Part shown: piece by piece, positions 32,837 through 49,656 of the stretch
Layout of the letters: every line of letters starts with the position of its first letter
Position numbering within the stretch: position 1 is the first letter of the stretch
Source: Pseudeuparius sepicola
Lineage: Eukaryota; Arthropoda; Insecta; Coleoptera; Anthribidae
Direction: 5' to 3'
Length of the DNA stretch: 64,000 nt
NCBI GenBank assembly: GCA_963920635.1
Contig: OY987303.1
Coordinates: 43,709,223-43,773,222 of the forward strand
Translations under genes and position numbers: made by a program
The notes under the pieces: generated by a model
The model's input: the letters and a program-made list of their open reading frames with translations, nothing else
Told to the model about the DNA's origin: nothing
The model's database searches: none

Positions 32837-33741
32837 GGGTCGCGGAGAAATGATCGAAAACATTTGATTGAACAACATTTGATCGAAAATGCAATTGATC
32901 GGAAAACAATTAATCGAAATTTATCTTTCAGGGTATATAAGGTTTTGCGGTGTAACAGGAAGAGATAAATCTAAAAAATAAACACTCCAGGCACAAACTA
33001 CTTTCTGTCCCAACAAATGCCAAATCCTTATTACTAATACAATACTATTCTTAGAGCCGATTTCACAATTAAATTAAAGGAGCTTTTAAAATAAATTGAC
33101 TTTTGCAACAATATTTAAACAATAGGTAGTTTTCATTGTTGTTAAAGTTCCTTTTACTAAAAGGCACCTTTAATTTGGTTATGAAATAGACACTTATTTC
33201 TTAAAAAAGCTGAGTGAACCAGGCCTGTATCTGACTAATTATAATAGGCGCTTTCGAAAACTAATCACGAGTTAATTAACCAGATCCTTCAATCCGTGTT
33301 CGATAAATAATCTGATCATCAAACTCTGCTATCAAATCTGATGGATCCTAAATCTGGCAATCGGCTGATTGGGTTAGATCAACTTTTGGGGTTACTTTTC
33401 GTAAGTGCCTAGTATATTATTGATTTGCAAGTAACACAACAGCGATAATTAATAAAAGATGGCACTAACTTAGAATATTCAAATACAGTGTGAGTAGTTA
33501 AGCAAAGCGGGCATCAGGACAGTGACGTCACGGCCTCGGCCGCTACGTGGCAGATGTTTATTTCCGACAGGTGAGGACTTGCATTTTGACCTGGCGTGAC
33601 CCCCGGGAGGTTATTAACCTTTTCCGACAGGTGCGGACTTGCATTTTGACCTGACGTAACCCCGGACGGGACTTGACCTCGATAGGTTATTAAGAATTGT
33701 TATGACATGTTCAGCTCCCCCTCTCTACCACTAGGTTAGGA

Positions 33742-33775
33742 TATAAGGTGGTCCGTTCTAGCTGGAGAACTCAGT
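33742..33775 (+). promoter_or_regulatory. Core promoter of TIR gene (left copy)
   Basis: TATAAGG at 33,742 is followed by the arthropod initiator-like TCAGTT at 33,771, placing the presumed start at 33,773, about 31 bases after the first T of the TATA box. The ATG follows at 33,796. The right TIR has the same TATA and initiator in mirror image. Confidence 0.65.
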
Positions 33776-33795
33776 TTAGTTTGAAAGCAGACAAC

Positions 33796-34107
33796 ATGGA
33801 TCTACAAGCAATCAACAAGTTGACGTGCCTCAATCGGAAATCCAGCATCAAGTTGGCGGAATTACCGCAAGATTTTCCATTGAAAATATATTGAGGCAAG
33901 CTGGTGAAGACAAAATTCGAGGAATGCGTCTTACTGGAATTGGAGGAGAATGTTGTATTCCTACCGCAGAGAGTCACGGTAGCATTCAAGCCACACTTGG
34001 AGGATTTCTCATCTGAAAGATATTTCCTCGTGTTTAAGGGACAACTCAACACAGGAAAGCATTATCCAGCGAATCAGTTTGAGATTGTAGAAAATAAAAA
34101 TATTTAA
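33796..34107 (+). pseudogene. TIR-encoded small protein, left copy (stop-interrupted)
   Basis: This is the left-TIR counterpart of the intact 103-residue frame at 49,096-49,407. A single C-to-G change makes codon 33 a TGA stop (33,892-33,894), where the right copy has TCA. The rest stays open to the same stop codon at 34,105-34,107. It would encode the same conserved core (TKFEECVLLELEE, then FLPQRVTVAF). Function is unknown; see the right copy. Confidence 0.75.
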
Positions 34108-34150
34108 ATGGAAATATTTTTTTATTTATTAAACCTAAATCTGTTACTAG

Positions 34151-34600
34151 CGTCGATGAAACGTTAACGAAGGCGTCAACGAAACGTCAACGAAACGTCG
34201 ACGAAACGTGGACGAAACGTCGACGAACGTCGACGAAACGTCGACGAAACGTCGACGCTTGGACGAAACGTCAACGAAACGTCGACGAACGTCAACGAAA
34301 CGTCGACGAAACGTCGACTAACGTCGACGAAACGTTGACGGACGTCGACGAAACGTCGAGGAAACGTTAACGAAACGTCGACGAAATGTTGACGGACGTC
34401 GACGAAACGTTAACGAAACGTCAACGAAACGTTGACGAACGTCGACGAAACGTCAACGAAACGTCGACGAAACGTTGACGGACGTCGACGAAACGTCGAC
34501 GAAACGTCGACGAAGCGTCCACGAAACGTTAACGAAACGTTAACGAACGTCGACGGAACGTCAACGAAACGTTGACGAAAAGTCAACGAAACTTCAGAAA
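34151..34600. repeat. 11-bp minisatellite (ACGAAACGTCG) inside left end
   Basis: About 450 bp consist of roughly 40 head-to-tail copies of ACGAAACGTCG with variants (ACGAACGTCG, ACGAAACGTTA, ACGGACGTCG). The dense GTCGAC, AACGTT and GTTAAC blocks are short palindromes. It begins about 45 bp inside the left TIR and has no counterpart inside the right TIR. No coding capacity is seen. Confidence 0.9.
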
Positions 34601-34643
34601 AGTGAATGTTGAAAATAAAACAATATATTTACGTTAATAATAT

Positions 34644-35351
34644 TTATTTATCTGTGAGAGTTGATAAGAACAAAATTGTCTTCTTATAATCCTTCACTTT
34701 GGTAGATGGCCAGTGACCGGAGTCTGGTCCACAATCCCATCCTAAAAGAGCTTTTGGGTTTGCCTTATATTTTCTTACGTTTTCTTCCAACCAATTCAAG
34801 ATTCTTAAATGATTTTTGTTTTTAGATGGTTGAAACTTATATGATAATTTCATAGCAGTTAAAGCTTCAACAAATATTTTTAAATTTTTATGTTTCGCTA
34901 AGTAGGCAGCTTGACATATAAAAGCATCACAGCAATCTTCCAATCCCTTGTAGTTTTTTATTATGTTTTTCACTGGATAAGAGTCCTCCAAATAGTATAG
35001 ATTAAAATTTGATATTAAGCTAAAAACGTGTACTTTATATGCAATGCTATCTTCCAGGCAATGATCCTTCATAAGCTTTTCGACTGTGGTAAAATTCATT
35101 TCTTCAATATTTTCTTGATCACAAATATTGATTATGATCTTAATATAATTAACAATTTTTCGCTTCTTTTCCAACATTAGGCAACACTCCGCAACACTAC
35201 ATGCTCCTTCAGCAACTTCTGTGAAGCTTTCATTCGGTATTATAAAATCTGGTTTACCAAGCAAATATATTAATTTTTCACCACTACAGGAACGGTTGTA
35301 CACTTTTTGAGAAGCAACGTATGCATCTACTTCGATTTTAATGAAATCCAT
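34644..35351 (-). CDS. Polinton hypothetical protein, 235 aa
   Basis: A single intact minus-strand frame begins with ATG at 35,351 and is the first gene inside the left TIR and minisatellite. The product is mixed charged and aromatic, mostly helical by appearance, with a Cys-rich middle (ACSVAECC; DCCDAFIC) and a C-terminal WDCGPDSGHWPS segment. I recognise no domain. It faces away from the ATPase gene, and the ~180-bp gap between them probably holds divergent promoters. It is one of the few uninterrupted genes of the element, so its product may be accessory rather than structural. Confidence 0.7.
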   Translation of the reverse strand: MDFIKIEVDAYVASQKVYNRSCSGEKLIYLLGKPDFIIPNESFTEVAEGACSVAECCLMLEKKRKIVNYIKIIINICDQENIEEMNFTTVEKLMKDHCLEDSIAYKVHVFSLISNFNLYYLEDSYPVKNIIKNYKGLEDCCDAFICQAAYLAKHKNLKIFVEALTAMKLSYKFQPSKNKNHLRILNWLEENVRKYKANPKALLGWDCGPDSGHWPSTKVKDYKKTILFLSTLTDK

Positions 35352-35519
35352 TATTACTTTACTATTGTATTAAATTTGTCTACCGTATATATAGATCTAT
35401 GCGGCTGCTCCCTCCAATCTTGCCCCCACTAGTTAGTATAATATTTGCTTACGTAAGTATGAACTTCACAGTTTGATTATTAAAGAGCGGTAAGTTAAAC
35501 CCCCACCATAAAAAGATAG

Positions 35520-35555
35520 TATAAATAGGTACGTATGTATACAGTGACTTCAAAC
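35520..35555 (+). promoter_or_regulatory. Probable core promoter of the ATPase gene
   Basis: TATAAATA at 35,520 is followed 23-32 bases later by ACAGT and TTCAAA initiator-like sequences. A start of transcription there would exclude the ATG at 35,535 and favour the ATG at 35,565. Confidence 0.45.
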
Positions 35556-35564
35556 ATCATTAAA

Positions 35565-36257
35565 ATGCGATTTCAACAACAGCAAAGGACTTTACCCATT
35601 GAAAATTTGGATATTGCAGATGCAGGACATCACCAAAAATCTAAACATGGTGAACTACTTCCAAATTCTATTAGAGCAATTTTTTGCGGACCGAGTAACT
35701 GTGGTAAAACCAATGCCCTTCTCAGTCTTATATTCAGTGAAAATGGTCTTAAATTTGAGAATATATATGTATACAGTAAATCGCTATTCCAACCAAAATA
35801 TCAACTATTACAAAATGTCTTAGAAAAGGTTGGTGATAAAATTAAATATTTTCCATTCAAAGCTAACGATGATGTTATTGATCCATCGGAGGCTCTGGAA
35901 AATTCTGTTTTTATTTTTGACGATGTAGCTTGCGACAAGCAAGATAAAATACGAGAATTCTATTCAATGGGTCGTCACAAAAGTATTGATGTAACATATC
36001 TTTGTCAAACCTATTCAAAGATACCTAAACAGTTGATACGAGATAACTGCAACATGATTGTGCTTTTTAAGCAAGATGATATCAATTTAAGGCATGTATA
36101 TGACGAGCATGTAACTCCAGATTTAACTTATGAACAATTTAAGGATTTGTGTCATCGATGTTGGAGTGATTCTTACGGAACATTAGTAATCGTTAAGGAT
36201 TTTAGGTTGAATACCGGACGGTATAGAAGTGGTTTCGATAAGTATATAAAGCTGTAA
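35565..36257 (+). CDS. Polinton packaging ATPase (FtsK/HerA superfamily)
   Basis: The 230-residue product (from ATG 35,565) has a Walker A loop, CGPSNCGKT, at about residues 41-49 and a Walker B strand, VFIFDDVA, at about 115-122. A sensor-like CQTYSKIPKQLIRDNCN segment follows. In Polintons and related viruses this ATPase pumps DNA into the capsid. The frame is intact, unlike most other core genes here. An upstream in-frame ATG at 35,535 would add 10 residues, but the TATA box and initiator spacing favour 35,565. It is followed 27 bp later by the DUF8207-like gene on the same strand. Confidence 0.93.
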   Translation: MRFQQQQRTLPIENLDIADAGHHQKSKHGELLPNSIRAIFCGPSNCGKTNALLSLIFSENGLKFENIYVYSKSLFQPKYQLLQNVLEKVGDKIKYFPFKANDDVIDPSEALENSVFIFDDVACDKQDKIREFYSMGRHKSIDVTYLCQTYSKIPKQLIRDNCNMIVLFKQDDINLRHVYDEHVTPDLTYEQFKDLCHRCWSDSYGTLVIVKDFRLNTGRYRSGFDKYIKL

Positions 36258-36284
36258 GTTAGTGTCATAAGTTAATTTGGAAAG

Positions 36285-37344
36285 ATGCCGCTAACATCGC
36301 AAGATCAAATTGCAAATGCGCAACGCGCGAAGAAAATTAGAGAACTCACACGCTCGATTAGAAAAAAATATACTGCGTTAAAATTAGGGAGACTTGAAGA
36401 AGATGAGTCGCTCGAGAAAGTTTTTAAGCCAGTAACAAAATCTTTAGAAAAAATGATAAAATCCAAGAATGAAAATGATATCAAACTAGAACCTAAAGAA
36501 GAAGAAGATGAGGATGATAATATTGATTTAGATAAACAAACAAAATTAATACAAGATGGAATTGAAGATAGAATCAACAAAAAGCTTGATGCGCTGAAGT
36601 TGGGCATTAATAAATTACAGGGATCGTTTACACTACCCGAGAGTCATTGGGAAAATTCTAATGAACCCAATCCGGAAAACGTTTTTGAAGAAGATGATGA
36701 TAATGATATGTCGAACTACCCTCAGGATGTTATAGACGAATTACCTAGAATCTTATCCGGAAATACTAAGACCATATATCCGTGAACATGGGGACAAGTC
36801 ATCTAAAATTGATAAGGTATACGGACCTGTTTACGATGCTTCTAAATCAAAATGGATACTGGGAAGAAAATTTATTGACTTTGATAAGCCTACAGGAGAC
36901 ATACTCGTTGATGGGTTGTATCGGTTTCCGGGTACAGAAGGACTTTACAATTTAATTTTTTATGATGATCCACAGTGCAACCTTGAAGACAGAAAAAATT
37001 ATAAAAAATTTTTAACTTTAACTAGTGTCCACCTCAACTCAGCGGGTAAATTAAAAGGTTCAAATCGATTTAAATATAGTGATATTATCAAGCCTCTAGA
37101 TAGAGGTGAACAAGAAACTGAAATACCTAAACCTAAAACACGTTCACAATCGACGGCATGTGGTACCGGCATGAACCTTACCTACAATAAAAAGCCTATA
37201 GAATTCGTTTATTGGGATGATGTAAATGAGTTGATAGATAGATTAAGGCTCCTCGTAGCCTCTAAACAAGCTGGAAACACCTCTCACGATAATGAAATTG
37301 TTGCTATTATCAATGAGTTAACAGAAGCTAACATTATTCGCTAA
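36285..37344 (+). pseudogene. Polinton conserved protein (DUF8207-like), one frameshift
   Basis: Two frames form one gene of about 350 codons. The 5' part (36,285-36,785) is a highly charged, coiled-coil-like region with an acidic stretch (EEEDEDD) near residue 70. The 3' part (to 37,344) carries the conserved block with GLYRFPGTEGLYNLIF and LTSVHLNS, widespread in insect Polinton-type elements. A one-base indel near 36,735-36,750 puts them out of frame, and the first frame then ends at 36,785. Its role is unknown; from its constant presence a virion or replication accessory protein is possible. Confidence 0.75.
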
Positions 37345-37385
37345 TATAAATATAAGGGCGAGCCAAAATTATCATCATATCCACT

Positions 37386-37841
37386 ATGAGTGTCAATAAG
37401 TTTGGACAATATTCTAATTCTAAAATTTATTCATCACATTTATCTTCATCGATCCATACAAGTAACACTATTTTCGAGTTTACTCCGAATGGTAATATAG
37501 ATGTAAAGAATTTGAAGATTAGTAATCTTCAAACTCCAAACGAAAATAGTGACGCAACAAACAAGCGATATGTTGATCAAACTGTTAATGAAATAAGAAC
37601 CAAAATTTTCGATTATATTCACAGACAGTTACATAAAATAACTACTGCTACGGTACATGAAAATACACTCATCAAAAATTTCAAGGAAGAATTGCATAGT
37701 GAAGTAAATAGACTACAATTGTGTATCGAAGAGAAAGATAAAAAGATAGTGGAACTATCGAATAAAATTGATAATCTAAAACCATTTTACAAATATAATA
37801 ATGAAAACACAGCACAGCAAAGAAAAAATTTAGTTGGTTAA
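37386..37841 (+). CDS. Fiber-like coiled-coil protein
   Basis: This is an intact 151-residue frame starting at ATG 37,386, with TATAAATAT upstream at about 37,346. Residues ~36-67 have the pattern of phage tail-fiber repeats (GNIDVKNLKISNL, then DATNKRYVDQTVNEI). A long heptad-rich helix follows (about residues 60-135), consistent with a trimeric coiled coil. A short fiber or spike on the capsid is my inference from this resemblance. It ends directly before the integrase region and is on the same strand as the ATPase. Confidence 0.6.
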   Translation: MSVNKFGQYSNSKIYSSHLSSSIHTSNTIFEFTPNGNIDVKNLKISNLQTPNENSDATNKRYVDQTVNEIRTKIFDYIHRQLHKITTATVHENTLIKNFKEELHSEVNRLQLCIEEKDKKIVELSNKIDNLKPFYKYNNENTAQQRKNLVG

Positions 37842-38684
37842 GGAACTACATACACCGGCTAGAAAAAATTATTCTCGCCGGCGAACTATTATCAAAGGAT
37901 TAGACGATCTCTGGCAAGCTGATCTTGCGCAAATGGATCAGTATGCGACAGTTAATTCATATTGGTAGTAATTGATTGTTTTTCAAAATACGTTTGGTGC
38001 GAACCGCTGAAATCAAAGTCTGGGGAAGAGGTTACGAAAGCTTTTACAAATATTCTGAAAAGATCTCAGAAACGACAAACTCGAAATCTACAAACTGACC
38101 TAGGAAAGGAATTTTACAATACGCATTTTAAGAAACTCATGAAACAATTTAATATAAATCATTATAGTTCATTTAGTATTAAAAAAGCTGCAATTGTGGA
38201 GACGGTTATACGCACCCTGAAAGAGCAAATGTTTAAATATTTTAGTTTGAATGGTAAATATAAATGGATTGATATGTTACTTTCAATAGTCGACGAATAT
38301 AATAATAGGAGACATCGTACTATACATATGAAGCCTAAGGATGTAAATAAGAGTACCGAAAGTCATTTACTTAAAAGTGTTTATAGTCACTCAAAGATTT
38401 TTAACAAACCAAAATTTAATGTGGGTGATATGGTGAGAATTAGTAAAGCTAAACATATTTTTGAAAAGGGTTATATTCCTAACTGGACGACAGAAGTCTT
38501 TAAAATTATTAAAATACAAATAACTAATCCGGTAACGTATGTACTTTTAGATGTAAGAGGAAATATTATAAAAGGAGGATTCTATACAGAGGAATTACAA
38601 AAAACGGCAGATCCAGATATTTACTTAGTAGAGAGGGTACTACGTAGGAGGGGGGGAAAGTGTTGGTGCGCTGGCTTGGTCTAG
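37840..38684 (+). pseudogene. Polinton retroviral-type integrase, frameshifted
   Basis: The catalytic core is divided by a one-base frameshift near 37,963. Upstream, KGLDDLWQADL holds the first catalytic Asp. Downstream, VIDCFSKYVW leads to the second Asp (LQTDLGKEF) and the Glu in AIVETVIRTLK, followed by YNNRRHRTIHMKP. A chromodomain-like C-terminal part ends about 38,620. The DDE triad is therefore still encoded, but in two frames, and the N-terminal zinc region is degraded. It would insert the element and make the 6-bp TSD. The usual Arg-Phe-Asn after the Glu is changed to Thr-Val-Ile. Confidence 0.9.
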
Positions 38685-38758
38685 ATAAAACACACGACTC
38701 ATGGATAAGTGCCACAAACGTTCTGTGAGTTGTTGGTTGTGTAAATCAAAATTCGAAG

Positions 38759-39442
38759 ATGAGTGACTCTGGATACAGCACAAGAAGTGAAGAAAACAAT
38801 GAAATTAATCGAATCCTAGAGCTTTATGAAGAGGCTATTCGAAATGAAAAGCACATGCTCTTAAGTACACGATTTGTGATAAAACCAGAGAATTTGTTTA
38901 CGGTTCATTGTGGGTTGAGTCCCGTACGCTTCTTCCGACCAGCAGTCAAAATTGTACATGAACTAACACAAGGTATGATTTCTATGGACCGCTTTGAATG
39001 GAATGAGTTTATACTACAATTAAATAAACTCGCAGAACAATATCTCTTTAATCCTGATATTGCACAGTCATCAATGAAGTTCGGCTCCAACCTGGAATTG
39101 AGAACAATGCTGGGTTTTAACAACCTCAAGATGGTTATACTCTGTAAGAATGATGACTGTCATTATTTCACCGAAAACGAAGTATTGGAGCTACTCACCA
39201 TTGACGAGAGTATTAGTTTAAAGATCAACTTATTGCTAAAATGTAACTATCTTGAACATTATCATAATATTTTAGATCAAGTTAATGAGTTGCTAAGAAA
39301 ATGTAATTATGTTATGGATCCTGTAGATATTATAATGTCTGTATGTAACTTATCGTTTAGTATTGAAACATATTGTATATTCGAGCTTCTCTCTTTTGAT
39401 AAAGAATTTGTTTTAACGGATTTGTATAGAAGAAGGGTTTAA
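38759..39442 (+). CDS. Polinton hypothetical protein, 227 aa
   Basis: An intact frame starts at ATG 38,759, preceded by the integrase and followed, tail to tail, by the polymerase gene on the other strand with an 88-bp gap. The sequence is leucine-rich and predominantly helical, with a Ser/Glu-rich N-terminus (MSDSGYSTRSEE) and paired Cys residues (CKNDDCHYF, CNYLEHYH). I recognise no domain. An unbroken frame beside a broken integrase suggests it was under selection until recently or decayed only by substitutions. Confidence 0.65.
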   Translation: MSDSGYSTRSEENNEINRILELYEEAIRNEKHMLLSTRFVIKPENLFTVHCGLSPVRFFRPAVKIVHELTQGMISMDRFEWNEFILQLNKLAEQYLFNPDIAQSSMKFGSNLELRTMLGFNNLKMVILCKNDDCHYFTENEVLELLTIDESISLKINLLLKCNYLEHYHNILDQVNELLRKCNYVMDPVDIIMSVCNLSFSIETYCIFELLSFDKEFVLTDLYRRRV

Positions 39443-39529
39443 GAAATAAAACAATATTAAAGATAATATGACTTTTATTTATTCTTACCTAAATAAATAC
39501 ATTACATATATCATAAGTACATGTGAAAT

Positions 39530-42500
39530 CTATACTGGTACAGCATCCATTATATCTTTATGACCCCAAGGTAGAGTGACAACATTATTTACCAAATATC
39601 GTTTATCGTCAAAAGGGCTGAGAGCAATCTTAGTTTGTTTTATGCTAAACACGTGAGCAAACGAACGGATAGAGCATTGGGTGGCAGTCTTTTCCTTCTT
39701 CTTAAATAAACAATTCACATAATCATCAAATGTTATATGATTTTTAATAACACTATGTTTAATTCCTTTTGATTTTTTAACACATTTTTTCTCCCCCTCA
39801 ATCAAATACGTATACATTTTAGATCTGAGACCAACGAAATGAGTCATAACAGTACCATTAAGTTCGTCTTTCATCAAGCCTGGCACTTTCTTATTTGTTA
39901 GTGGAATATTATATCTATTGTCAATTGGGTAGTCGCTGGTATCAAAACGATGTAAATCACTTTTGATAGTCTCACCATAGACATCGTTACATTTTACTTC
40001 GTAAATCAAACTATCCGTATCTGTATAAAGTAGTTTACAACTTTCCGATGAAAATTTTGGAAGCATATAATCATAATGAAATTCGTATACACAAGTTTTA
40101 GAAATATCGAGAATTGCCATACCTATATACAAAGGCTTATTAAATACTATTTCAGTTTTATTTAGTTCAATAGCTACTAAGTCTTCATCAAATATTAATC
40201 TGCTTTTAAAAACTGGGCTAGCAATTAGATTCTTTGCTCCGTACCTCCCATTCCATTTCCTAACTAATTTAACGATTCTATGCTTTCGAATATTTTCCAT
40301 AGTCTTTCCGTAAACTGCGTTATTCATCAGTTTAATTATAGTTTTTTCAAAATCAAATGTTGCCTTTGCTCTTAACTGTGTATTAAATTTAATATAAGGT
40401 GCTAACCATGCAGCCTGTTCAAATTTCAAAACCCTATAAATTTCATTTAAGATTAAACCATTTCGCAGAGCTTGTTTAAGTGCTCTATAATGTATGACAT
40501 ATTTTTCTTTCGGATATAGGGTTGTCATCAGTTTAGATAATTTTGAATTTGGAGGTACACCATGTTCGGCACAAAAAGGTAAATCTCTATGCAAATCATG
40601 TAAGTATTCAGGGTAGTCTAAATCAACCTCTAAAATATATCCCTCAAGTGCATCATCTGGAATAGTGGTAACGTCAATAGCTGTATCTACCCATTGAAAC
40701 CCACCGTAAGGAAGGTGTTCACACATCGCCCAACCGTACAAGTTGTTAACATCTAGGTATAATAAGTACTTGGAAGGTTCACTAGGATCATAGTTATTCA
40801 TATATTTATTATTTGCTTGTGAAAATCGATTGCAGCACTGACTTATACCACCCCGTATACCCTTTTCGAAAAACATTAAAATATCGATATCTTGAAAGGT
40901 TTCTAACTTACAACCTGTACATTTAAGCATGCAATCCCAGGTAAAACCTGGGAGAGTATAGTACCAAGCTGGATCTAAACCATAATTTTTTAGACAGGTA
41001 TTTCTGAAATTTTAAAAAATATCTGTAAGTAACATAATGTCAGTCTTTAGGTACAAGTCTGAGTATTCACCTAAATTTTGTATTTCAAATGTGTCCCAAA
41101 CTAATTGAGCATGTCTATAAGCATCTTCATCGATCCCAATATCATTTAATTTATTATAAAACTGTTCTATGGAAGGTAAAGAATTTTCAGTCAATTTATC
41201 TAAGTTATCGATGTAATCATAGCAAAATACACCTTTCTTGGTTAGCAGTTTAAATCTATCTTGAGATATACCACAAAATTCTTTACGAGTATTAACAAAG
41301 TCTTCACTATTGAGAGACGAGGCTAGGGTGTCTAGGGAGAAACCTAAGAATCTAAACGAGTCAATGAATCGAAATTTGACGTTTGTGTTATTATTAAAAA
41401 TAGTAAAACTAATGTATTTTTCCTTATTAATTGGAAGCAAAGTTGTGTTGTGTCTTTTAGATAGATCTCTAATAATAAAATGACTGTCGTACCCACTGAG
41501 ATTTGAAATACAATCGGTACTACAAATGAATTTCTATAATTTAAATTACATGATTGGTGCGCATAACCTCTGAAATGAGATGTTAGATGACAATGATCAC
41601 GTACAATTATATCATTAGGGTTAAATTCTCTTTCACAAATATGACATGTCGGTGTTGAGTCTTTTAGATTGACAGCTTCTTTCATCGGTTCGATGTTTTT
41701 TAATTTCGATGAAACTAAATTTGCAATTTCATCTAGCTGATCTGCAAACCAAGTCATACAATCAGCTCCGCGGTAACTTTTGTAAAAAGATAATGTGTTA
41801 TCGTAACTACATTTAAAATAATATCCAGCACTAAAAGCTTCATGTTTTTGATATCTAGCTGTTTTAGTCATTATTTGCGGGTCATTGTTGGGTTTCAGAA
41901 TGGATTCAAAATCCGCTAAAATAACAAAGGGTACTTTTTCTCTATGAACATAATTTTTGAACTCGATATATTTATCTTTAGGGAAGGATATTTTACAATT
42001 ATTTATATCTTAACAGTAGCTTATATGTTCGTCGAGCTTTTCTTGAGAAGAATAATAATTAAGACACCTGTCACATATAAATATTTTACCTTTATGTTTA
42101 TTTGTTTGCCTTGAAATCAACCTAGATAAATCTTTAATCCAACAATAATGGTAGTGAATGTCTACTATTGACTCATCGATAGGAACAGCTTCATGATCAT
42201 TAATTTTTGGAAAATATTTATCTTGAATTAAAAGGAGATTTACATGTTTTTGCATTTTACTTTTTGTAATTCGCCCAGGTGAAGTAATAAACGTTGCAAA
42301 CTGATCGTGTTTTAGTAGATCTAATATGTACACATTTACAGATATATTATTTAATTTTTCAAATTTTGGAATTTGATTTAAAGTTAAGGGAAATTTCAAG
42401 CCCCTTAAATTTAATACCGTCGAAGGGTGTGGATATGAAGAAGTGCGGGACGGTACCTTTTTTCCATGAGGGGTGTATAGAGCGGAAACTACAGCCCATA

Positions 42501-43258
42501 AGAAACAAAGATCATCATTATTTTTAACATTTACGCACGCTCGCTTAGCTGCTATGGATTCCGGAAGCTTAATATAAGACTTACCGCCGTTTCCTACTTC
42601 AATTTTGTTGATATTGATTTCCAAGCTCAAAATTTTATGTAAAGCCCAACCGGAATCTCTTTCCTGAAAAGATTCTAGTTTGTTTAAGATTTTATCTATA
42701 ACACAGTTTTGAACCCATTTTTTAAGCTCTGTACTTTGATCAATTATTTCGTTTTTCGTATTAAAATATTTATTTTCTAACACTTCATCTTCTCCTATTT
42801 TTTTAATAAATTCACCACAAAACACTGTTAACTTTAATAATTCTAAGAGTTTTTAGGATTCTGCTGATACGGTTTTTGAATAAGAAAAAAGCATCATTAA
42901 AAAATTGTAGGATATCTTTGTGTTTTAAGTTTACCATAATGGCTGAGCGAATGCGACTTTGAAACACCGATTTTGTATCCTCCCATTTTACCCGGTCATT
43001 TCTATTTTCTATCCTACCTTTACCTGCCCCCTCGTGTCTATATGCTTTCAAATAAGTTCTGAACCTAATTAGATGTCCTAAATTTGTCTCCAATTTTATT
43101 AAGGTACCATGATTGTAAATTTTCTTCTTTAATGCCCTACGAATTAACTTAATGTTTGCGTTTATTATCTTTTTCCAATACTCTATAGTTCGTTGATTTG
43201 TATTTCTTCGAAAAAGTCTAAACCCTTTTTCACAAACGTTGATAATGTTGTCACTCAC
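39530..43258 (-). pseudogene. Protein-primed family B DNA polymerase, four breaks
   Basis: This is the largest Polinton gene, about 1,240 codons on the minus strand. The N-terminal part (43,258-42,010) carries the conserved FQERDSGWAL and a Cys-His cluster (CDRCLNYYSS). The exonuclease region follows (FADQLDEIANL; CHICEREF; HCHLTSHFRGYAH). The polymerase part has YLLYLDVNNLYGWAM (motif A), KLMNNAVYGKTMEN (motif B) and YTDTDSLIYEV (motif C). It would replicate the element from a protein primer at the TIR ends. Breaks are a frameshift near 42,820, in-frame TAA at 42,010-42,012, a frameshift near 41,500, and in-frame TAA at 41,012-41,014. Confidence 0.93.
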
Positions 43259-43450
43259 GTCATTTCTAAGTTGATCTATACCGTGATGTATATCTCTCGG
43301 AAATGTAAACGCATATGAAAACCTTACACCAGTTTAAATGTTGTATAACTGTTCTTCCCCCCACCTATTTGCGGTACTATAAATTCAGTGACGGTGTTTC
43401 TGAAATTTATTAGTATTCCACTATTGTTGAACACTATACTTATTAAAAAC

Positions 43451-43762
43451 ATGAACTCATTCCTAAGTTATTTAAACAAGAATTTATTAGTGAAGAAGTT
43501 CGTAAGTGTGCGAGATATGGAAATTGGAGAAAAGTATAGAATATCATCTTTTAGTAAAATCCATACAAGGTTTGGAGAGAAAGTGTTAGTAGAATTTTTG
43601 GAGTTCCGTACTTTGTTACCACGTAGATTTACTGAAGAATTTACCCCCCAACGTATCGCAGAAATAAACAAGAAGATGGAAAGTGGAGAAACATTTTTTT
43701 TTGCAAGTCTTGGACCAGCACCAGGTAGAACAACCAACATAGAATTTTCGTCTTACGAATGA
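43451..43762 (+). CDS. Small Polinton protein, internal paralogue of the TIR gene
   Basis: The frame from ATG 43,451 encodes 103 residues. The frame is open further upstream only from a GTG, while CTATAAATTCAGTG at about 43,375 marks a promoter ahead of 43,451. The core KIHTRFGEKVLVEF, then LLPRRFTEEF, aligns with the TIR-encoded core (VKTKFGECVLLEL, then FLPQRVTVAF), and both proteins are 103 residues long. The strand-rich pattern suggests a small OB-like nucleic-acid-binding fold, which is a guess. It lies between the polymerase start and the membrane-protein gene. Confidence 0.7.
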   Translation: MNSFLSYLNKNLLVKKFVSVRDMEIGEKYRISSFSKIHTRFGEKVLVEFLEFRTLLPRRFTEEFTPQRIAEINKKMESGETFFFASLGPAPGRTTNIEFSSYE

Positions 43763-44566
43763 CTCTAACGGAATCCAAAAGGAGGTCGAATAGACTCTAC
43801 TATAGAAGAAAATTAGAAATGTATATAAAATCTTTACAAGAATTAAAATTTGAAATTATATTATATGAATGAAATAAGAAAGTTGATAATATTTAATTAG
43901 ATTAAGGATTATTGTTAATGCAAAAAATGTAATAAAAATTATAATAAAAAAATAAATGAAAGTACCTATTTTAATTTACCTTATCATCTAAAAAATATAC
44001 AATGAATTTGAAATGAGAATTTTAATCAACTGCACATTACCTCTTTTTGCTTTAGAATAGGCTTTGACTTGACTTAACGTAACTTGACTAACGTAACTTG
44101 ACTTAACATGACTTCTTAACATTTGTATATAGTTAGTTTATATTTTTATTTTATTTTTATTTTAATCTGTATTCCTATTTGTAGTGTTACTTTTATGTTA
44201 ACTCTTGTTTTAATTTTTATTTTAATATACATGTATCATCAAATTTATGTTATTAATTTTTATTTTTCTCTCAATTTACCTACTACAAAAAGTTGCAACA
44301 TAAAAATGTTGAGAAGTGCTAAGTATAAAGATAGTCTTAAAACAATCATGAAAGATAACTTTACAGGTAAGTATACTACTTTTTAGCATTTAATACTCTA
44401 AAACCACCGTCAATAAATATCATCATACTTTGCTCTTCTAACTTGAATAAGATAAAAATGTTGCTCTGCAACAGATTATAGAAATTATAGATAGGGTGTA
44501 AATGAAATACTTGATATATTTTTAACTTTTTATTTAATACGTACGATACAATGACAGATTTTGATT
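43763..44566. other. AT-rich spacer within Polinton
   Basis: No gene is supported between the small paralogue and the membrane protein. Short TAACTTGACT-type repeats lie at 44,065-44,115, followed by a T-rich stretch of repeated ATTTTTATTTTA. An 87-codon frame at 44,123-44,386 is low-complexity hydrophobic and not convincing. Confidence 0.45.
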
Positions 44567-45031
44567 TTAGTTTTTTCTTAATATTGTTGTATACCATTTT
44601 CGTTCACTAAGTACTCTCTGAATAAGTTTAATAAGCAATTTCACGACTAATAACGATGAACATGTTGTTATAAAGTAGATCATGTACAGCAGGTTCACTT
44701 CTCCCATACACCGTTGAGATCCTTGCTGAGTTCCTTGTGTATTATTAGATGTTAGATTAGTTTTGTTATAGATTTTTGAGCAATGGATTAACCATTCCGT
44801 ATCAGCAATTGTTCGATTTTTAAATGTCATTCTAATTTTGTAGTATGCAAAACTTCTAGGTAGATTTACCATTACAATATCCTTAGTATCAGGTACAGGT
44901 ATAAAAGGAATCCATTTTATAGGATGTTTATCCACACAAATTGCAAATTCGTCTACATAGGTTGGTTTATAAATATAGAACACGTTGTTAATTATAGCAT
45001 GCAAAAAAATGTATTCTGCTTTTAACAACAT
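44567..45031 (-). CDS. Polinton hypothetical membrane protein, 154 aa
   Basis: An intact minus-strand frame from ATG 45,031. The N-terminal 75 residues are strand-rich and aromatic. An Asn/Thr/Gln-rich linker follows (SNNTQGTQQG), and residues ~112-135 form one strong transmembrane segment (LLYMIYFITTCSSLLVV) before a basic tail (KLIQRVLSERK). One-span membrane proteins are known in Polintons and their viral relatives, but I cannot assign this to a family. The neighbours are the RNase H-like gene and the capsid block on the same strand. Confidence 0.55.
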   Translation of the reverse strand: MLLKAEYIFLHAIINNVFYIYKPTYVDEFAICVDKHPIKWIPFIPVPDTKDIVMVNLPRSFAYYKIRMTFKNRTIADTEWLIHCSKIYNKTNLTSNNTQGTQQGSQRCMGEVNLLYMIYFITTCSSLLVVKLLIKLIQRVLSERKWYTTILRKN

Positions 45032-45176
45032 CTTGAATAAAACTGTAGGATATTTGTTAAGATTTTGTAATTTATACCTATATGTATTTGGAGGGGGTAA
45101 TTAAAATAAACAACTAAGTATTATTAAAAATTTAATTATTTTTATACTACATTACAGATTAAACTAACATAATATA

Positions 45177-45653
45177 TTATGGTAAAAATGTTTGTAGCCA
45201 ACTATATAGTTTTTCACAATTACTTAAACTGCATAACCATTTCTTATGTTCTGTGTGACACAAGCATGATGGTATCTCCTTCTCAAACTTTGGTACTTGA
45301 ATCCAATTGTTCTGAAGATCTCCAACATCAACTATTTTCTTGTCGATAACATTACGTAAAAATCTTACCTTTTGATCACCTTTAACGTAGACTGAATTGA
45401 CGTTGAACAAAATATTTTCTACTATTTTGGGTAATTCACTATAGTCCACATATCCACTGGAATATTTAATTCCTAAACGATTTTTTTCAAGATTTCTAAC
45501 ATGTCTTTTATCGAATTTACTAAGTGAATTAAAATCTCTGAACGGTTTTAATAATACGTGTAATATTTGTTCGTTAATTTTAATTGTCAGCTCTTTAGGA
45601 TGGAATTCATTTTCCACCATGAAGCCATGAATGTCAATAACTGCAATTTTCAT
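45177..45653 (-). CDS. RNase H-fold-like protein, 158 aa
   Basis: An intact minus-strand frame from ATG 45,653. The start, IAVIDIHGF, and the following KELTI strand resemble the first strands of an RNase H-type exonuclease fold. Later VYVKGDQKVRFL and DVGDL supply the pattern of the second acidic strand, and a C-terminal Cys/His group (CLCH, then C and C within KKWLCSLSNC) could bind zinc. Proteins of this plan are common in insect mobile elements. Nuclease activity is an inference, and the catalytic acids are not fully matched. The gene is downstream of the capsid gene on the same strand. Confidence 0.5.
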   Translation of the reverse strand: MKIAVIDIHGFMVENEFHPKELTIKINEQILHVLLKPFRDFNSLSKFDKRHVRNLEKNRLGIKYSSGYVDYSELPKIVENILFNVNSVYVKGDQKVRFLRNVIDKKIVDVGDLQNNWIQVPKFEKEIPSCLCHTEHKKWLCSLSNCEKLYSWLQTFLP

Positions 45654-45755
45654 GGTTACGTTTTATCTATACTTTTACAGAGAATGGTTTTCTTCACTAA
45701 CCGATACGTTTTTATATCCAATTGATAGTTAAGCAAAGGAGAGGGGGTTTGTTAT

Positions 45756-47076
45756 TTAAATCATTATATTTCCAACAGTTTCGCTCAACGGTAAATATTC
45801 TAGTATACAATCATGAATAATAATACAATAAACTCTAGTTTTAGCTGGAAATCCTTTGGTGCTCTCGATATCTAACTTTACGTCAACCGTGCTGGTTTTT
45901 ACGGACTCGTTTCTTTTGGAACAATCGATAACAAAAAGCGTTGCATGTTCTTTAAAGTCTTTGTAACTGAGAATAGGACGCTTATCTCGAGTATTCATAA
46001 AACTTGGATGAAAATCGGTATAATTATTGTATGATTCTACATAATCCTTATTGAAATCTTGCCTTAGCCGTTCAAATGGATAATAATCAATGTTTAAGAT
46101 TAACCTAACGTCCGAGATATCTATATGATCGAACTGTGTAGGATCTTCTTTTGAGTTCTCTTTACGATCTGTCTGAAATCCAACTATAACAAATCTCGGA
46201 CTCTCGACTGCTGTAGATGTTTTCACCGACCATATTTCTCTAGTGGCATTTTCGGTGAGATTTGGTAATTCGTGTAATTCCCATTTACGAAACGGAATTA
46301 AAATAGGTTTATTGCTTTTGATTGCTTTCAACAGATCCAGTCTAATCATGTCATTGGGTTGAATATGCTTTACCTTCAGCTCGATACTGCTAATGGTTAG
46401 TTCTGCAGTTAATTCTGGGATTATTCCTAGAGTTTCTTTTAATTGCAAACAATTGGCATCATTTCGGGATCTTATGAGTCTTATGGTTTGCTTACCGCAA
46501 ATAGCATATTGATAGTCATTAAAAATACCAATAAGCTGAACGAACCATCCTTATTCAAAACAGAAAATTTTTCTGGATAGGTCCAACTCGAAGTCATCAT
46601 ATGTTTATGATCATTAGGAGTGTAACACAAATATGCTCTAGTTGAACTCATGATACCAGGATCTCTAACAGCATCCATTTCTTTACCATTCAGTTCATAA
46701 GATATAGATTCAAAGAAAAAAGCAGCACCATTATTGACAAGGCTGAAAGTACCTGCTCCGCCTGTTTTCTCTATTTTTCCTTTAATAAATATCGCGGCAT
46801 CGTACATTAATAGCCAGGCATCACCTTGATTGATAGTTATTTCCACTATATCGTTATTCATAAAAGACTTAACAAATGGGTAATAGGTACGTGTCTCCAA
46901 TCGTTGAATTAAGGTGTTAACGACATCGTACCCAAAAGATTTTAAAAACTTTAGATTTTCAGGTGTATGTATAAGATTCTTCTCACGAGGTTCACACTTA
47001 TGAGACCTTTGAGGGAGTGATTTTTGAGAATATTGTTATACGGTTGATATCTAGCGTCATCAAAAACTAGACCCAT
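45756..47076 (-). pseudogene. Polinton major capsid protein (double jelly roll), two frameshifts
   Basis: About 438 codons on the minus strand, from ATG 47,076 to the stop at 45,756. Conserved features are a TRTYYPFV start to the first barrel, DIVEITINQGDAWLL, FESISYELNGKEMD and RDPGIMSS. In the second half are WELHELPNL and the paired strands before DYYPFERL. The protein would build the icosahedral shell; double-jelly-roll capsid proteins are what ties Polintons to viruses. One frameshift lies near 47,015 and another near 46,540. The gene follows the minor capsid gene almost without a gap. Confidence 0.85.
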
Positions 47077-47077
47077 T

Positions 47078-47785
47078 TTATAACAACTTTTTTAATTCTA
47101 ATCTTACAATTATTTCTTCACCTCTGAAATTTACCAACTGGGAATTTTGATCAAAAATTGATAATGATAAATTATTAATTTCACGCTTGGTAACGGGTAC
47201 GTATAGCAAATTTCTTGGAGTTTCGTCTATCGCGTAACCGGGGTCGGTCCCCACAGCAAATTCGTAAATAGTATTCGATGGTTTATTATTATAGTATGCT
47301 CCAGCCGTTATATTACTATCTATATGAATCGTTCTAACTTTAACAATGCTTACAGGTAAATCTGATATGTGAAGTTTCTTTGATTGTAGTAAGCGGTTAG
47401 AGAAACCTAACAATTTTCCTATTGAATCCTGCTGAAAATCAATGCTGTATTGATCACTATAAATTTCACACTGAAGCGTACTATTGTTAGCTTTCAATGA
47501 AAATATATTTGGATTGTTATCTAACTTTTTCAAAGATTTCAATATTTGTCTTTCTATAGCACTAATTTCATATGACCCAGTAGGAATTTCTATAATTTTT
47601 CGTTCATTGTTTTCATTGACAACATAAAATTTGTTATTAGGCGCCTCAATATTCGGAATAGTATTGTATGAATGAAATCCTAACAATGCTAGACCATACT
47701 GAACATCAGATTCTAAATATATTGTATTATTAAAGTCAATACTTAGCCTTGAAGTAAAACCATGTAGGGTGAATATCAGTGACAT
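47078..47785 (-). CDS. Polinton minor capsid (penton) protein
   Basis: From ATG 47,785 the frame encodes 235 residues and is intact. Typical features are YGLALLGFHSYNTIPNIEAP near the start, IPTGSYEI, a central DSIGKLLGFS, the strand pattern VKVRTIHIDSNITAG, and a C-terminal FDQNSQLVNFRGE. This matches the single-jelly-roll minor capsid protein that forms the vertices in Polinton-type particles. The frame stays open 21 codons upstream, but that extension overlaps the protease gene and looks unlike the family. It ends 2 bp before the major capsid ATG. Confidence 0.88.
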   Translation of the reverse strand: MSLIFTLHGFTSRLSIDFNNTIYLESDVQYGLALLGFHSYNTIPNIEAPNNKFYVVNENNERKIIEIPTGSYEISAIERQILKSLKKLDNNPNIFSLKANNSTLQCEIYSDQYSIDFQQDSIGKLLGFSNRLLQSKKLHISDLPVSIVKVRTIHIDSNITAGAYYNNKPSNTIYEFAVGTDPGYAIDETPRNLLYVPVTKREINNLSLSIFDQNSQLVNFRGEEIIVRLELKKLL

Positions 47786-47804
47786 GACTGAGTTGACTCT
47801 AAGC

Positions 47805-48978
47805 TTACCTCTGCTTTTTATAGAGAAATGCGAGGCACAGGTGACCACAATTTATTTCATTAAATTTTTGATAGGACTCGTTGTTGTATAAAATCTTAAC
47901 CCCCTTACCTAAGTAACGAATAAGTTCTATAGGTGGTTTTAAGTTACCAAAACTATCAAAATACTGTACAAAATTATTCTTTTTTATATATGCTACCCAG
48001 TGTGTTCCCTTATTGCTTTGAATATCTAAATTTATAATTGCAGACTCATTTGCATTTGGTTTTGTTTTTGGAAGCGTGTCTCTCATAAATATACCTTTAA
48101 AATGCGGCACTTTTATTTTTCTAGCAAATTTATTTAGGTCAACATCAGTTAATTGTCTATTAGGAAGCTTTAAAGGAAGTTTTTGAACTAAGTTTTTTTT
48201 TGAAAAAAACAAACCAAATCCACCACGATTATTTTTTCGCATATAAAGACCTGATCCTTTTTTTCCAATAGCTTCTATTGCTCGATTATGTGGTTTTTCT
48301 TCAACCATCTTTTTTTGAGCATTTTTGGCATCGATTGTAGTTTTAGCAACAGCACTAGCACCTCCAGCTACCGATCCAAGAGCTCCCAATGCAGCTAGGA
48401 TTGGAATCAACGGTAGAAACCCACCGGTTTTGTGCTGAAATGGGATAATTCTTGGTATTCGCACCTTTCTTTTTCCTCCCACTCTTTTAACAGCTAGTCG
48501 TGCAGCTTTGATGGCAGCTAATGTTGTATTTTTAATATTGTTAACGTTATTCAGCTGATTGTTGTTAAATGATTTTTTCAACGATTTTTCAACTTTTCGT
48601 ACTATATCTCGCCTGAATGAATTGGGACGCTTTTTTAAACCCATACCTAACTTCCGTTTAGCTTTCATTGCCGTTGTTACAAACCAAGCAGCAGCTTTTT
48701 CACTTAATTTTGCGTTTTTGCTTTTAACTCTTTCCCAAGCTTGATTTTCCAATTCCAAGTCAGCTTTATGTCGATCTTCCAGCAACCCGGTTTTTGAGTA
48801 GAATATATCGTGTTTTTTTACATAAAGTATCTAATCTATTAATTCCACTGTCACCCCTTGCTAATCTTTTTTCTAGTCTAGTACCAGGTCCACAATATTG
48901 ATATCCGGGAATGTGGAACTCAATTGGTAATTTATTTATTAACGAGTTAAATAACCCTTCTCCAGTGAATGATAACAT
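47805..48978 (-). pseudogene. Phospholipase A2-like / core-peptide-like / Ulp1-type protease fusion, one frameshift
   Basis: From ATG 48,978 the N-terminus shows HIPGYQYCGPGTRLEKRL, the calcium-loop motif of the parvovirus-like phospholipase A2 group. In the middle are a basic region and a hydrophobic Gly/Ala segment (LIPILAALGALGSVAGG) resembling adenovirus core or lytic peptides. The C-terminal part is an adenovirus-type cysteine protease: His in GTHWVAYI, Asp in QYFDSFG, Cys in NCGHLCLAFL. It would mature capsid proteins and perhaps help entry. A seven-T run (48,813-48,819) holds a one-base frameshift just before the phospholipase His-Asp dyad. Confidence 0.88.
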
Positions 48979-49094
48979 TAGACTGAAGTCGATTCTCTCT
49001 AAATATCATGTATTTATATTTTTCAGTAGTTCCTATTATTAATATTTATCATATTAGTTGGTTTAGGTTGGATAATTAAAAAAAAAATTTTTCG

Positions 49095-49650
49095 TTTAAA
49101 TATTTTTATTTTCTACAATCTCAAACTGATTTGCCGGGTGAAGTTTTCCAGTGTTGAGTTGCCCCTTAAACACGAGGTAATATCTTTCAGATGAGAAATC
49201 CTCCAAGTGTGGCTTGAATGCTACCGTGACTCTCTGCGGTAGGAATACAACATTCTCCTCCAATTCCAGTAAGACGCATTCCCCGAATTTTGTCTTCACC
49301 AGCTTGCCTGAATATATTTTCAATGGCAAATCTTGCGGTAATTCCGCCAACTTGATGCTGGATTTCCGATTGAGGCACGTCAACTTGTTGATTGCTTGTA
49401 GATCCATGTTGTCTGCTTTCAAACTAAACTGAGTTCTCCAGCTAGAACGGACCACCTTATATTCTAACCTAGTGGTAGAGAGGGGGAGCTGAACATGTCA
49501 TAACAATTCTTAATAACCTATCGAGGTCAAGTCCCGTCCGGGGTTACGTCAGGTCAAAATGCAAGTCCTCACCTGTCGGAAATAAACATCTGCCACGTAG
49601 CGGCCGAGGCCGTGACGTCACTGTCCTGATGCCCGCTTTGCTTAACTACT
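49095..49650 (-). repeat. Polinton right terminal inverted repeat (556 bp)
   Basis: Mirror of 33,493-34,108, lacking the 60-bp duplication of the left copy. It holds the intact copy of the TIR gene and its promoter. Confidence 0.93.
49096..49407 (-). CDS. TIR-encoded small protein, intact right copy
   Basis: ATG at 49,407 opens a 103-residue frame ending at the inner border of the TIR. The frame is open 16 codons further upstream, but the TATA and TCAGTT promoter elements place transcription just ahead of 49,407. The core TKFGECVLLELEE and FLPQRVTVAF is shared with the internal gene at 43,451. The predicted strand-rich core and basic residues suggest nucleic-acid binding, perhaps at the replicating ends; that is inference. 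Being inside the TIR, it is present twice per element; the left copy has a stop. Confidence 0.75.
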   Translation of the reverse strand: MDLQAINKLTCLNRKSSIKLAELPQDLPLKIYSGKLVKTKFGECVLLELEENVVFLPQRVTVAFKPHLEDFSSERYYLVFKGQLNTGKLHPANQFEIVENKNI

Positions 49651-49656
49651 AGTGTG

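Follow-up and report, generated by a model that had tools for sequence, protein, structure and literature searches.

A small gene family resident in the terminal inverted repeats of Polintons in Pseudeuparius sepicola

Polintons are placed close to the origin of many groups of eukaryotic DNA viruses and, to our knowledge, little is known about their replication beyond PolB. Poxvirus terminal repeats carry genes that are present in two copies per genome. These and other viral terminal-repeat genes resemble the gene described here in that the repeat gives two copies per genome, a likeness of layout. The core set of Polinton/Maverick elements and adintoviruses comprises PolB, integrase, ATPase, protease and capsid genes; the carrier element reported here has integrase, ATPase and capsid matches, while the gene within its terminal inverted repeats (TIRs) matches none of these core families. 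In the available portion of PMC10328495, the list of core features names no TIR gene of this sort. No description of a gene in Polinton TIRs, or of non-autonomous Polintons, was found in the literature searched, although this is a weak absence as the sources were accessible in part.

The closest known parallels are the SSBs of protein-primed phages, which possess a divergent OB-like fold according to the accessible part of PMC8276246. Bam35 B35SSB, phi29 SSB and PRD1 P12/P19 are, like the TIR gene (TIR1), small proteins of linear protein-primed replicons (PMC8276246). Unlike TIR1, they are given no terminal-repeat location in that part of the source, and no convincing sequence similarity links them to the TIR1 family.

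The carrier element and its terminal gene

TIR1 was examined within a 64,000-nucleotide stretch of DNA (the window), where it is carried by an element with TIRs and a 6-bp target duplication (Table 1). Pfam searches of this element returned an integrase (rve PF00665, 37.8 bits against a cut-off of 32.6), a packaging ATPase (Pox_A32 PF04665, 34.3 bits against 22.8) and a double jelly-roll major capsid protein (PF21738, above cut-off on two fragments), together with an adenovirus-like protease below the Pfam cut-off (Peptidase_C5, E 0.066). With integrase core, ATPase and capsid fragments all above their Pfam cut-offs, the element is rightly called a Polinton. Its left TIR exceeds the right by approximately 60 bp ahead of the gene (33493-33795), where there is one extra copy of a subterminal repeat, and a tandem array with the 11-bp unit CGTCGACGAAA lies just inside it at 34151-34592. 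A comparison of the ORFs at 34644-35351 and 38759-39442 found no relation between them.

Table 1. Coordinates of the carrier element and its features in the window
Feature	Position	Strand	Basis or remark
Polinton carrying the TIR gene	33493-49650		inverted repeats and identical flanks
Target-site duplication AGTGTG, left	33487..33492	.	6 bp
Left TIR	33493..34123	+	~630 bp; terminus AGTAGTTAAGC
TATA + TCAGTT initiator, left copy	33742..33776	+	pattern match; module at sibling ends
Left copy of the TIR gene, interrupted by TGA at codon 33	33796..34107	+	twin in left TIR
PolB-like gene, broken into several frames	39533..43333	-	PolB-like motifs read by eye
Internal paralogue (INT1), 103 aa	43451..43762	+	divergent from PolB-like gene; protein homology to TIR1
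37-codon micro-ORF overlapping INT1 stop (ATGA)	43759..43872	+	homologous 40-codon ORF, same place in family 2
TATA + TCAGTC module	47786-47822	-	just ahead of ORF ending 47785
TATA + TCAGTC module	48981-49018	-	just ahead of ORF ending 48978
Right TIR	49080..49650	-	~570 bp
Right copy of the TIR gene (TIR1), open ORF of 103 aa with ATG start	49096..49407	-	homologue of internal gene
Codons 86-92, patch separating the right from the left version (7 nt, 2 aa)	49132..49152	-	sequence comparison
TATA + TCAGTT initiator, right copy	49427..49461	-	pattern match; module at sibling ends
Target-site duplication AGTGTG, right	49651..49656	.	6 bp

The initial annotation had placed a gene wholly within each TIR, giving two copies per element. 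The right copy is indeed open, whereas its left twin is broken and is also altered at the conserved core glycine, such that one open copy exists in this element. Each TIR read contains one recognisable gene, and in this family (family 1) the inner edge of the TIR lies approximately 16 bp beyond the gene's stop codon. ORF length is weak evidence for a gene, since a frame this long also arises in 63 of 2000 shuffled versions of the TIR; we count TIR1 as a real gene because of its protein-level homology to other members of the family described below.

A TATA box and initiator had also been annotated ahead of the gene, and these were recovered in both TIRs, where TATAAG precedes the A of TCAGTT by 31 bp and the ATG is found at +24. 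The module is kept at 60/60 of the sibling ends sampled (see below). The pattern TATAWR-N23-28-TCAGTY occurs five times in the window against an expectation of 0.87, two of these matches being the twin TIR copies, and none of 100 shuffles reached five; a looser TATA/initiator pattern showed no excess across the whole window (24 against 21.4 expected). Promoter activity of the TIR modules is putative. Two others of the five matches, the TATA + TCAGTC modules elsewhere in the element, share the same layout, perhaps reflecting an element-wide promoter type.

Sibling elements and the internal paralogue

Sibling copies of TIR1 were sought in the host genome (769 Mb) and the best 150 of 2594 candidates were scored, 146 of which contained no stop. 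Roughly 50 inverted pairs were chosen by eye from this similarity-ranked list, in which open copies are over-represented, and 30 pairs were analysed. Identical 6-bp flanks were present in 25 pairs and differing flanks in three, with the terminus not found in the remaining two. Among siblings the annotated two-copy arrangement fared better than in the window's element, with 59 of the 60 end copies open in a list that favours open ones. The distance from ATG to terminus was 303 bp at 49 of these 60 ends and 301-308 bp at 54.

Right and left versions of the gene are distinguished by a short patch near its 3' end (Table 1). This patch alters two of seven residues, and 487 of 20000 random sets of seven changes were equally conservative without introducing a stop. 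All 31 ends with a right inner flank carried the right version. Among 29 ends with a left inner flank, 25 carried the left version (two with one further change) and four the right version (one with one further change), the inner flank still being of the left type in all four. These four exceptional ends look like the product of right-to-left conversion, a reading that we prefer over a sub-lineage of common ancestry. Two ends lying 18 kb apart (L063 and L064) each possess part of the right inner flank.

Three more pairs with a diverged interior each had one end of each version. The TIR genes of these elements differ at 0-4 of 312 bases from the same version in the main group, and their internal gene stands at a dS of about 0.12. 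Subfamilies with internal genes this far apart thus have TIR genes in common, and TIRs and interiors seem to have had different histories, from which we infer exchange of TIRs. It had been proposed that TIR genes are homogenised by the process that keeps the TIRs alike. The right patch in 4/29 left ends and the TIR genes common to subfamilies lend this proposal direct if limited support. A strong form of it is disfavoured by codons 1-85, where differences within and between elements show no separation (1.0 vs 0.99). Twelve of the 30 sibling pairs are identical across these codons.

The annotated diverged internal gene, of the same length and sharing the cores of TIR1, proved to be a true paralogue, which we term INT1. 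BLASTP of the two proteins gave an E value of 1e-7 (single comparison) and 0/5000 shuffles reached their score. At the DNA level their score of 14 lies below the maximum of 16 reached among 300 shuffles, for which the mean was 10.8. INT1 is head-to-head with a frame that we take to be PolB-like from motifs read by eye, at a distance of approximately 120 bp in the window; four fragments of this PolB-like gene returned no polymerase match in Pfam. A stretch inside it (41347-42009, minus strand) has an Endonuclease_7 match above the Pfam cut-off.

INT1 and the PolB-like gene adjoin in 17/19 of the siblings sampled, the other two stretches containing neither. Within the 17, INT1 is open in 13, has a stop in one and is split across two frames in three. 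INT1 lay outside the first 20/20 sibling stretches taken because siblings possess other sequence inward of approximately 44026. Similarity to the window breaks off exactly at 44026 in 10/20 of these stretches, with several kb of other sequence beyond, which suggests a deletion at this point in the element of the window.

A comparison of dN/dS between TIR and internal versions had been suggested and was informative for the internal gene. Between subfamilies, INT1 gave a dN/dS of 0.31-0.39 in six of eight copies compared; the other two gave 0.73 and 1.36 and both look frame-shifted. Nine of 16 changes in INT1 are nonsynonymous, against 0.79 taken as the expected proportion (binomial P 0.034). 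For TIR1, the comparisons contain too few changes to show selection.

A second family and further candidate classes

The initial annotation hinged on homologues in other Polintons, and one was found in a second family of the same genome, with the gene in both TIRs. When the genome was searched with the INT1 protein and the best 150 of 3108 candidates were scored, at least 68 copies shared 59-60% identity with INT1, none with a stop. Of these 68, 42 form 21 inward-facing pairs, which are confined to contigs C1 and C2; the spacing is 12-18 kb in 20 pairs and 2.5 kb in the other. The one pair that was read has the terminus AGTAGTAATAC, GTGCAA flanks on both sides and TIRs of more than 2 kb, which extend well beyond the gene; each end carries the same open gene of 102 aa (TIR2).

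TIR2 is closer to INT1 (57% identical over 102 codons) than to TIR1 (33% over 94, 0/5000 shuffles reaching the score). Between TIR2 and INT1, pN is 0.265 and pS 0.941 (saturated), showing at the sequence level that this pair is under constraint. The two also share the micro-ORF at the stop (ATGA; 0/5000 shuffles; the family-2 copy being L108). Ahead of the TIR2 ATG are TATA-like boxes at 77 and 45 bp and ACAGTC at 24 bp, a less canonical spacing. Comparisons of three family-2 copies contain too few changes to be informative, giving dN/dS values of 1.02, 0.08 and, in one case, no synonymous change.

A genome search with TIR2 found 110 of the best 150 (of 3110) to be 100% identical over 102 residues, with a stop in three. 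TIR2 copies are on this evidence the result of a very recent burst, and their openness therefore says little about selection. Interior pieces of three family-2 elements, in which open frames reach 170 codons, did not match the ORFs of the window's element, and no PolB-like match was found inside the 21 family-2 pairs (best 150 of 1536 candidates). Because of these two results, the former covering parts of elements only, family 2 looks non-autonomous. The same genome contains a further PolB-like family on several contigs (57-59% identity, 56 among the best 150 of 1536 candidates), none of which was located 20 kb or less from any of the 68 listed copies of the family-2 gene.

By significant protein homology and a common core, TIR1, INT1 and TIR2 are a family, and residence of its members in TIRs recurs in at least two Polinton families. 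A position in the TIR is not peculiar to a single element. In the genome the core pattern T-x-[FY]-G-E-K-V (third base T in the F/Y codon) was matched 776 times, compared with 6 for the reversed control. Among 100 matches listed, all on contig C1, 87 represent three new sequence classes (A, B and C) and 41 inward-facing pairs occur. Pairs of this kind spanning less than 40 kb include 66/69, 12/14 and 4/4 of the listed matches of the three classes, which we regard as candidate members on the strength of a 20-base core and this pairing.

Beyond this genome, no relative was found in viral contigs searched with TIR1, INT1, a PolB-like fragment, a capsid fragment and a two-sequence profile, in prokaryote genome contigs searched with the two-sequence profile, or in phages searched with TIR1.

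Possible functions of the gene family

For the gene family, Pfam gave no match above the curated cut-off and PHROGs none of note, and searches of Pfam, PHROGs and PDB sequences linked it to no established family of SSBs. AlphaFold models built from two-row alignments were both too poor to judge a fold by (pLDDT 35.7 and 42.3); combining them gives the strand order b-b-b-a-b-b, which at this quality may hint at an OB-like arrangement. Foldseek with the better model found nothing at E<=0.001 in BFVD or the PDB. The best PDB sequence match of INT1, ribosomal protein L24 (E 0.016), is not convincing, and since L24 is an SH3-like rather than an OB barrel it does not point to an OB fold. A three-sequence profile gave best PDB matches at noise level (E 0.46-0.68), including exotoxin-like chains whose matched part we take to be an OB fold.

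In the explanation that we tentatively favour, the gene belongs to a family of Polinton genes that code for proteins of approximately 103 residues with the core T-x-F/Y-G-E ... LP-x-R. Its members reside in TIRs, reading inward from a putative terminus-proximal promoter, with a second diverged member beside the PolB-like gene in the carrier family; INT1 may be a specialised or a parental form of the TIR member. Placement in the TIR gives a two-copy gene that is open to exchange both end-to-end and between elements. The protein itself would most likely be an early factor, small, OB-like and nucleic-acid-binding, that assists protein-primed replication, for instance by coating the displaced single strand. 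Placement at both ends, beside the PolB-like gene and at both ends of a second family hints at a common role in copying element DNA. The roles suggested initially, in terminal DNA binding, replication priming or dosage control, are conjectural. Telling against the replication reading, family 2 apparently has no replication genes, and TIR2 need not act in the replication of its own element. We consider the putative OB-like replication accessory plausible, at somewhat short of an even chance.

Retention of the gene in a numerous, apparently non-autonomous family, a promoter module close to the terminus and the lack of a Pfam family above cut-off would also suit a host-directed factor, acting for instance against small-RNA or innate silencing and located at the ends so as to be expressed early and at double dose, as are genes in the terminal repeats of poxviruses. 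Such a factor would not be expected to have a diverged member head-to-head with a PolB-like gene, an arrangement more in keeping with a replication gene, and the 57% identity and strong constraint between INT1 and TIR2 are untypical of arms-race genes; we judge this reading somewhat unlikely. The near-constant position of the ATG (301-308 bp from the terminus at 54/60 sampled ends) might instead reflect a protein that binds double-stranded TIR DNA so as to fire the origins, protect the ends or regulate its own promoter, and the apparent exchange between TIR copies would keep such a protein and its site matched. No DNA-binding motif was recognised in it, however, and by eye the termini of families 1 and 2 are alike only in their first bases, such that a single conserved site is not evident. 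We hold this putative TIR binder to be unlikely.

The location may also be an accident whereby repeats grew inward over a subterminal gene, the second copy being without value. The TIR edge just beyond the gene in family 1, the continuation of the TIR well past the gene in family 2 and the broken left copy in the window's element are all compatible with this. Set against it are the presence of differently related members at this location in two families, the fit of three further classes to the same layout and the conservative nature of the right/left patch at the protein level, and we consider an accidental origin unlikely.

The replication-accessory reading can be extended to the host's Polintons as a whole, in a version that we regard as doubtful. 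These Polintons would share a TIR-resident replication accessory gene family whose location at both origins is conserved, either retained or gained anew across about five families. Conversion between the ends would match the copies while left and right tails specialise. The numerous non-autonomous family, carrying the gene as its sole recognisable one, might employ it as a toll to, or a lever on, the replication of autonomous elements.

A small constrained gene at both termini and beside a PolB-like gene is a candidate for the missing replication partner of Polintons. The many copies of the gene make its expression and binding directly testable, and a numerous, seemingly non-autonomous family that keeps the gene constitutes a natural experiment on the gene's purpose.
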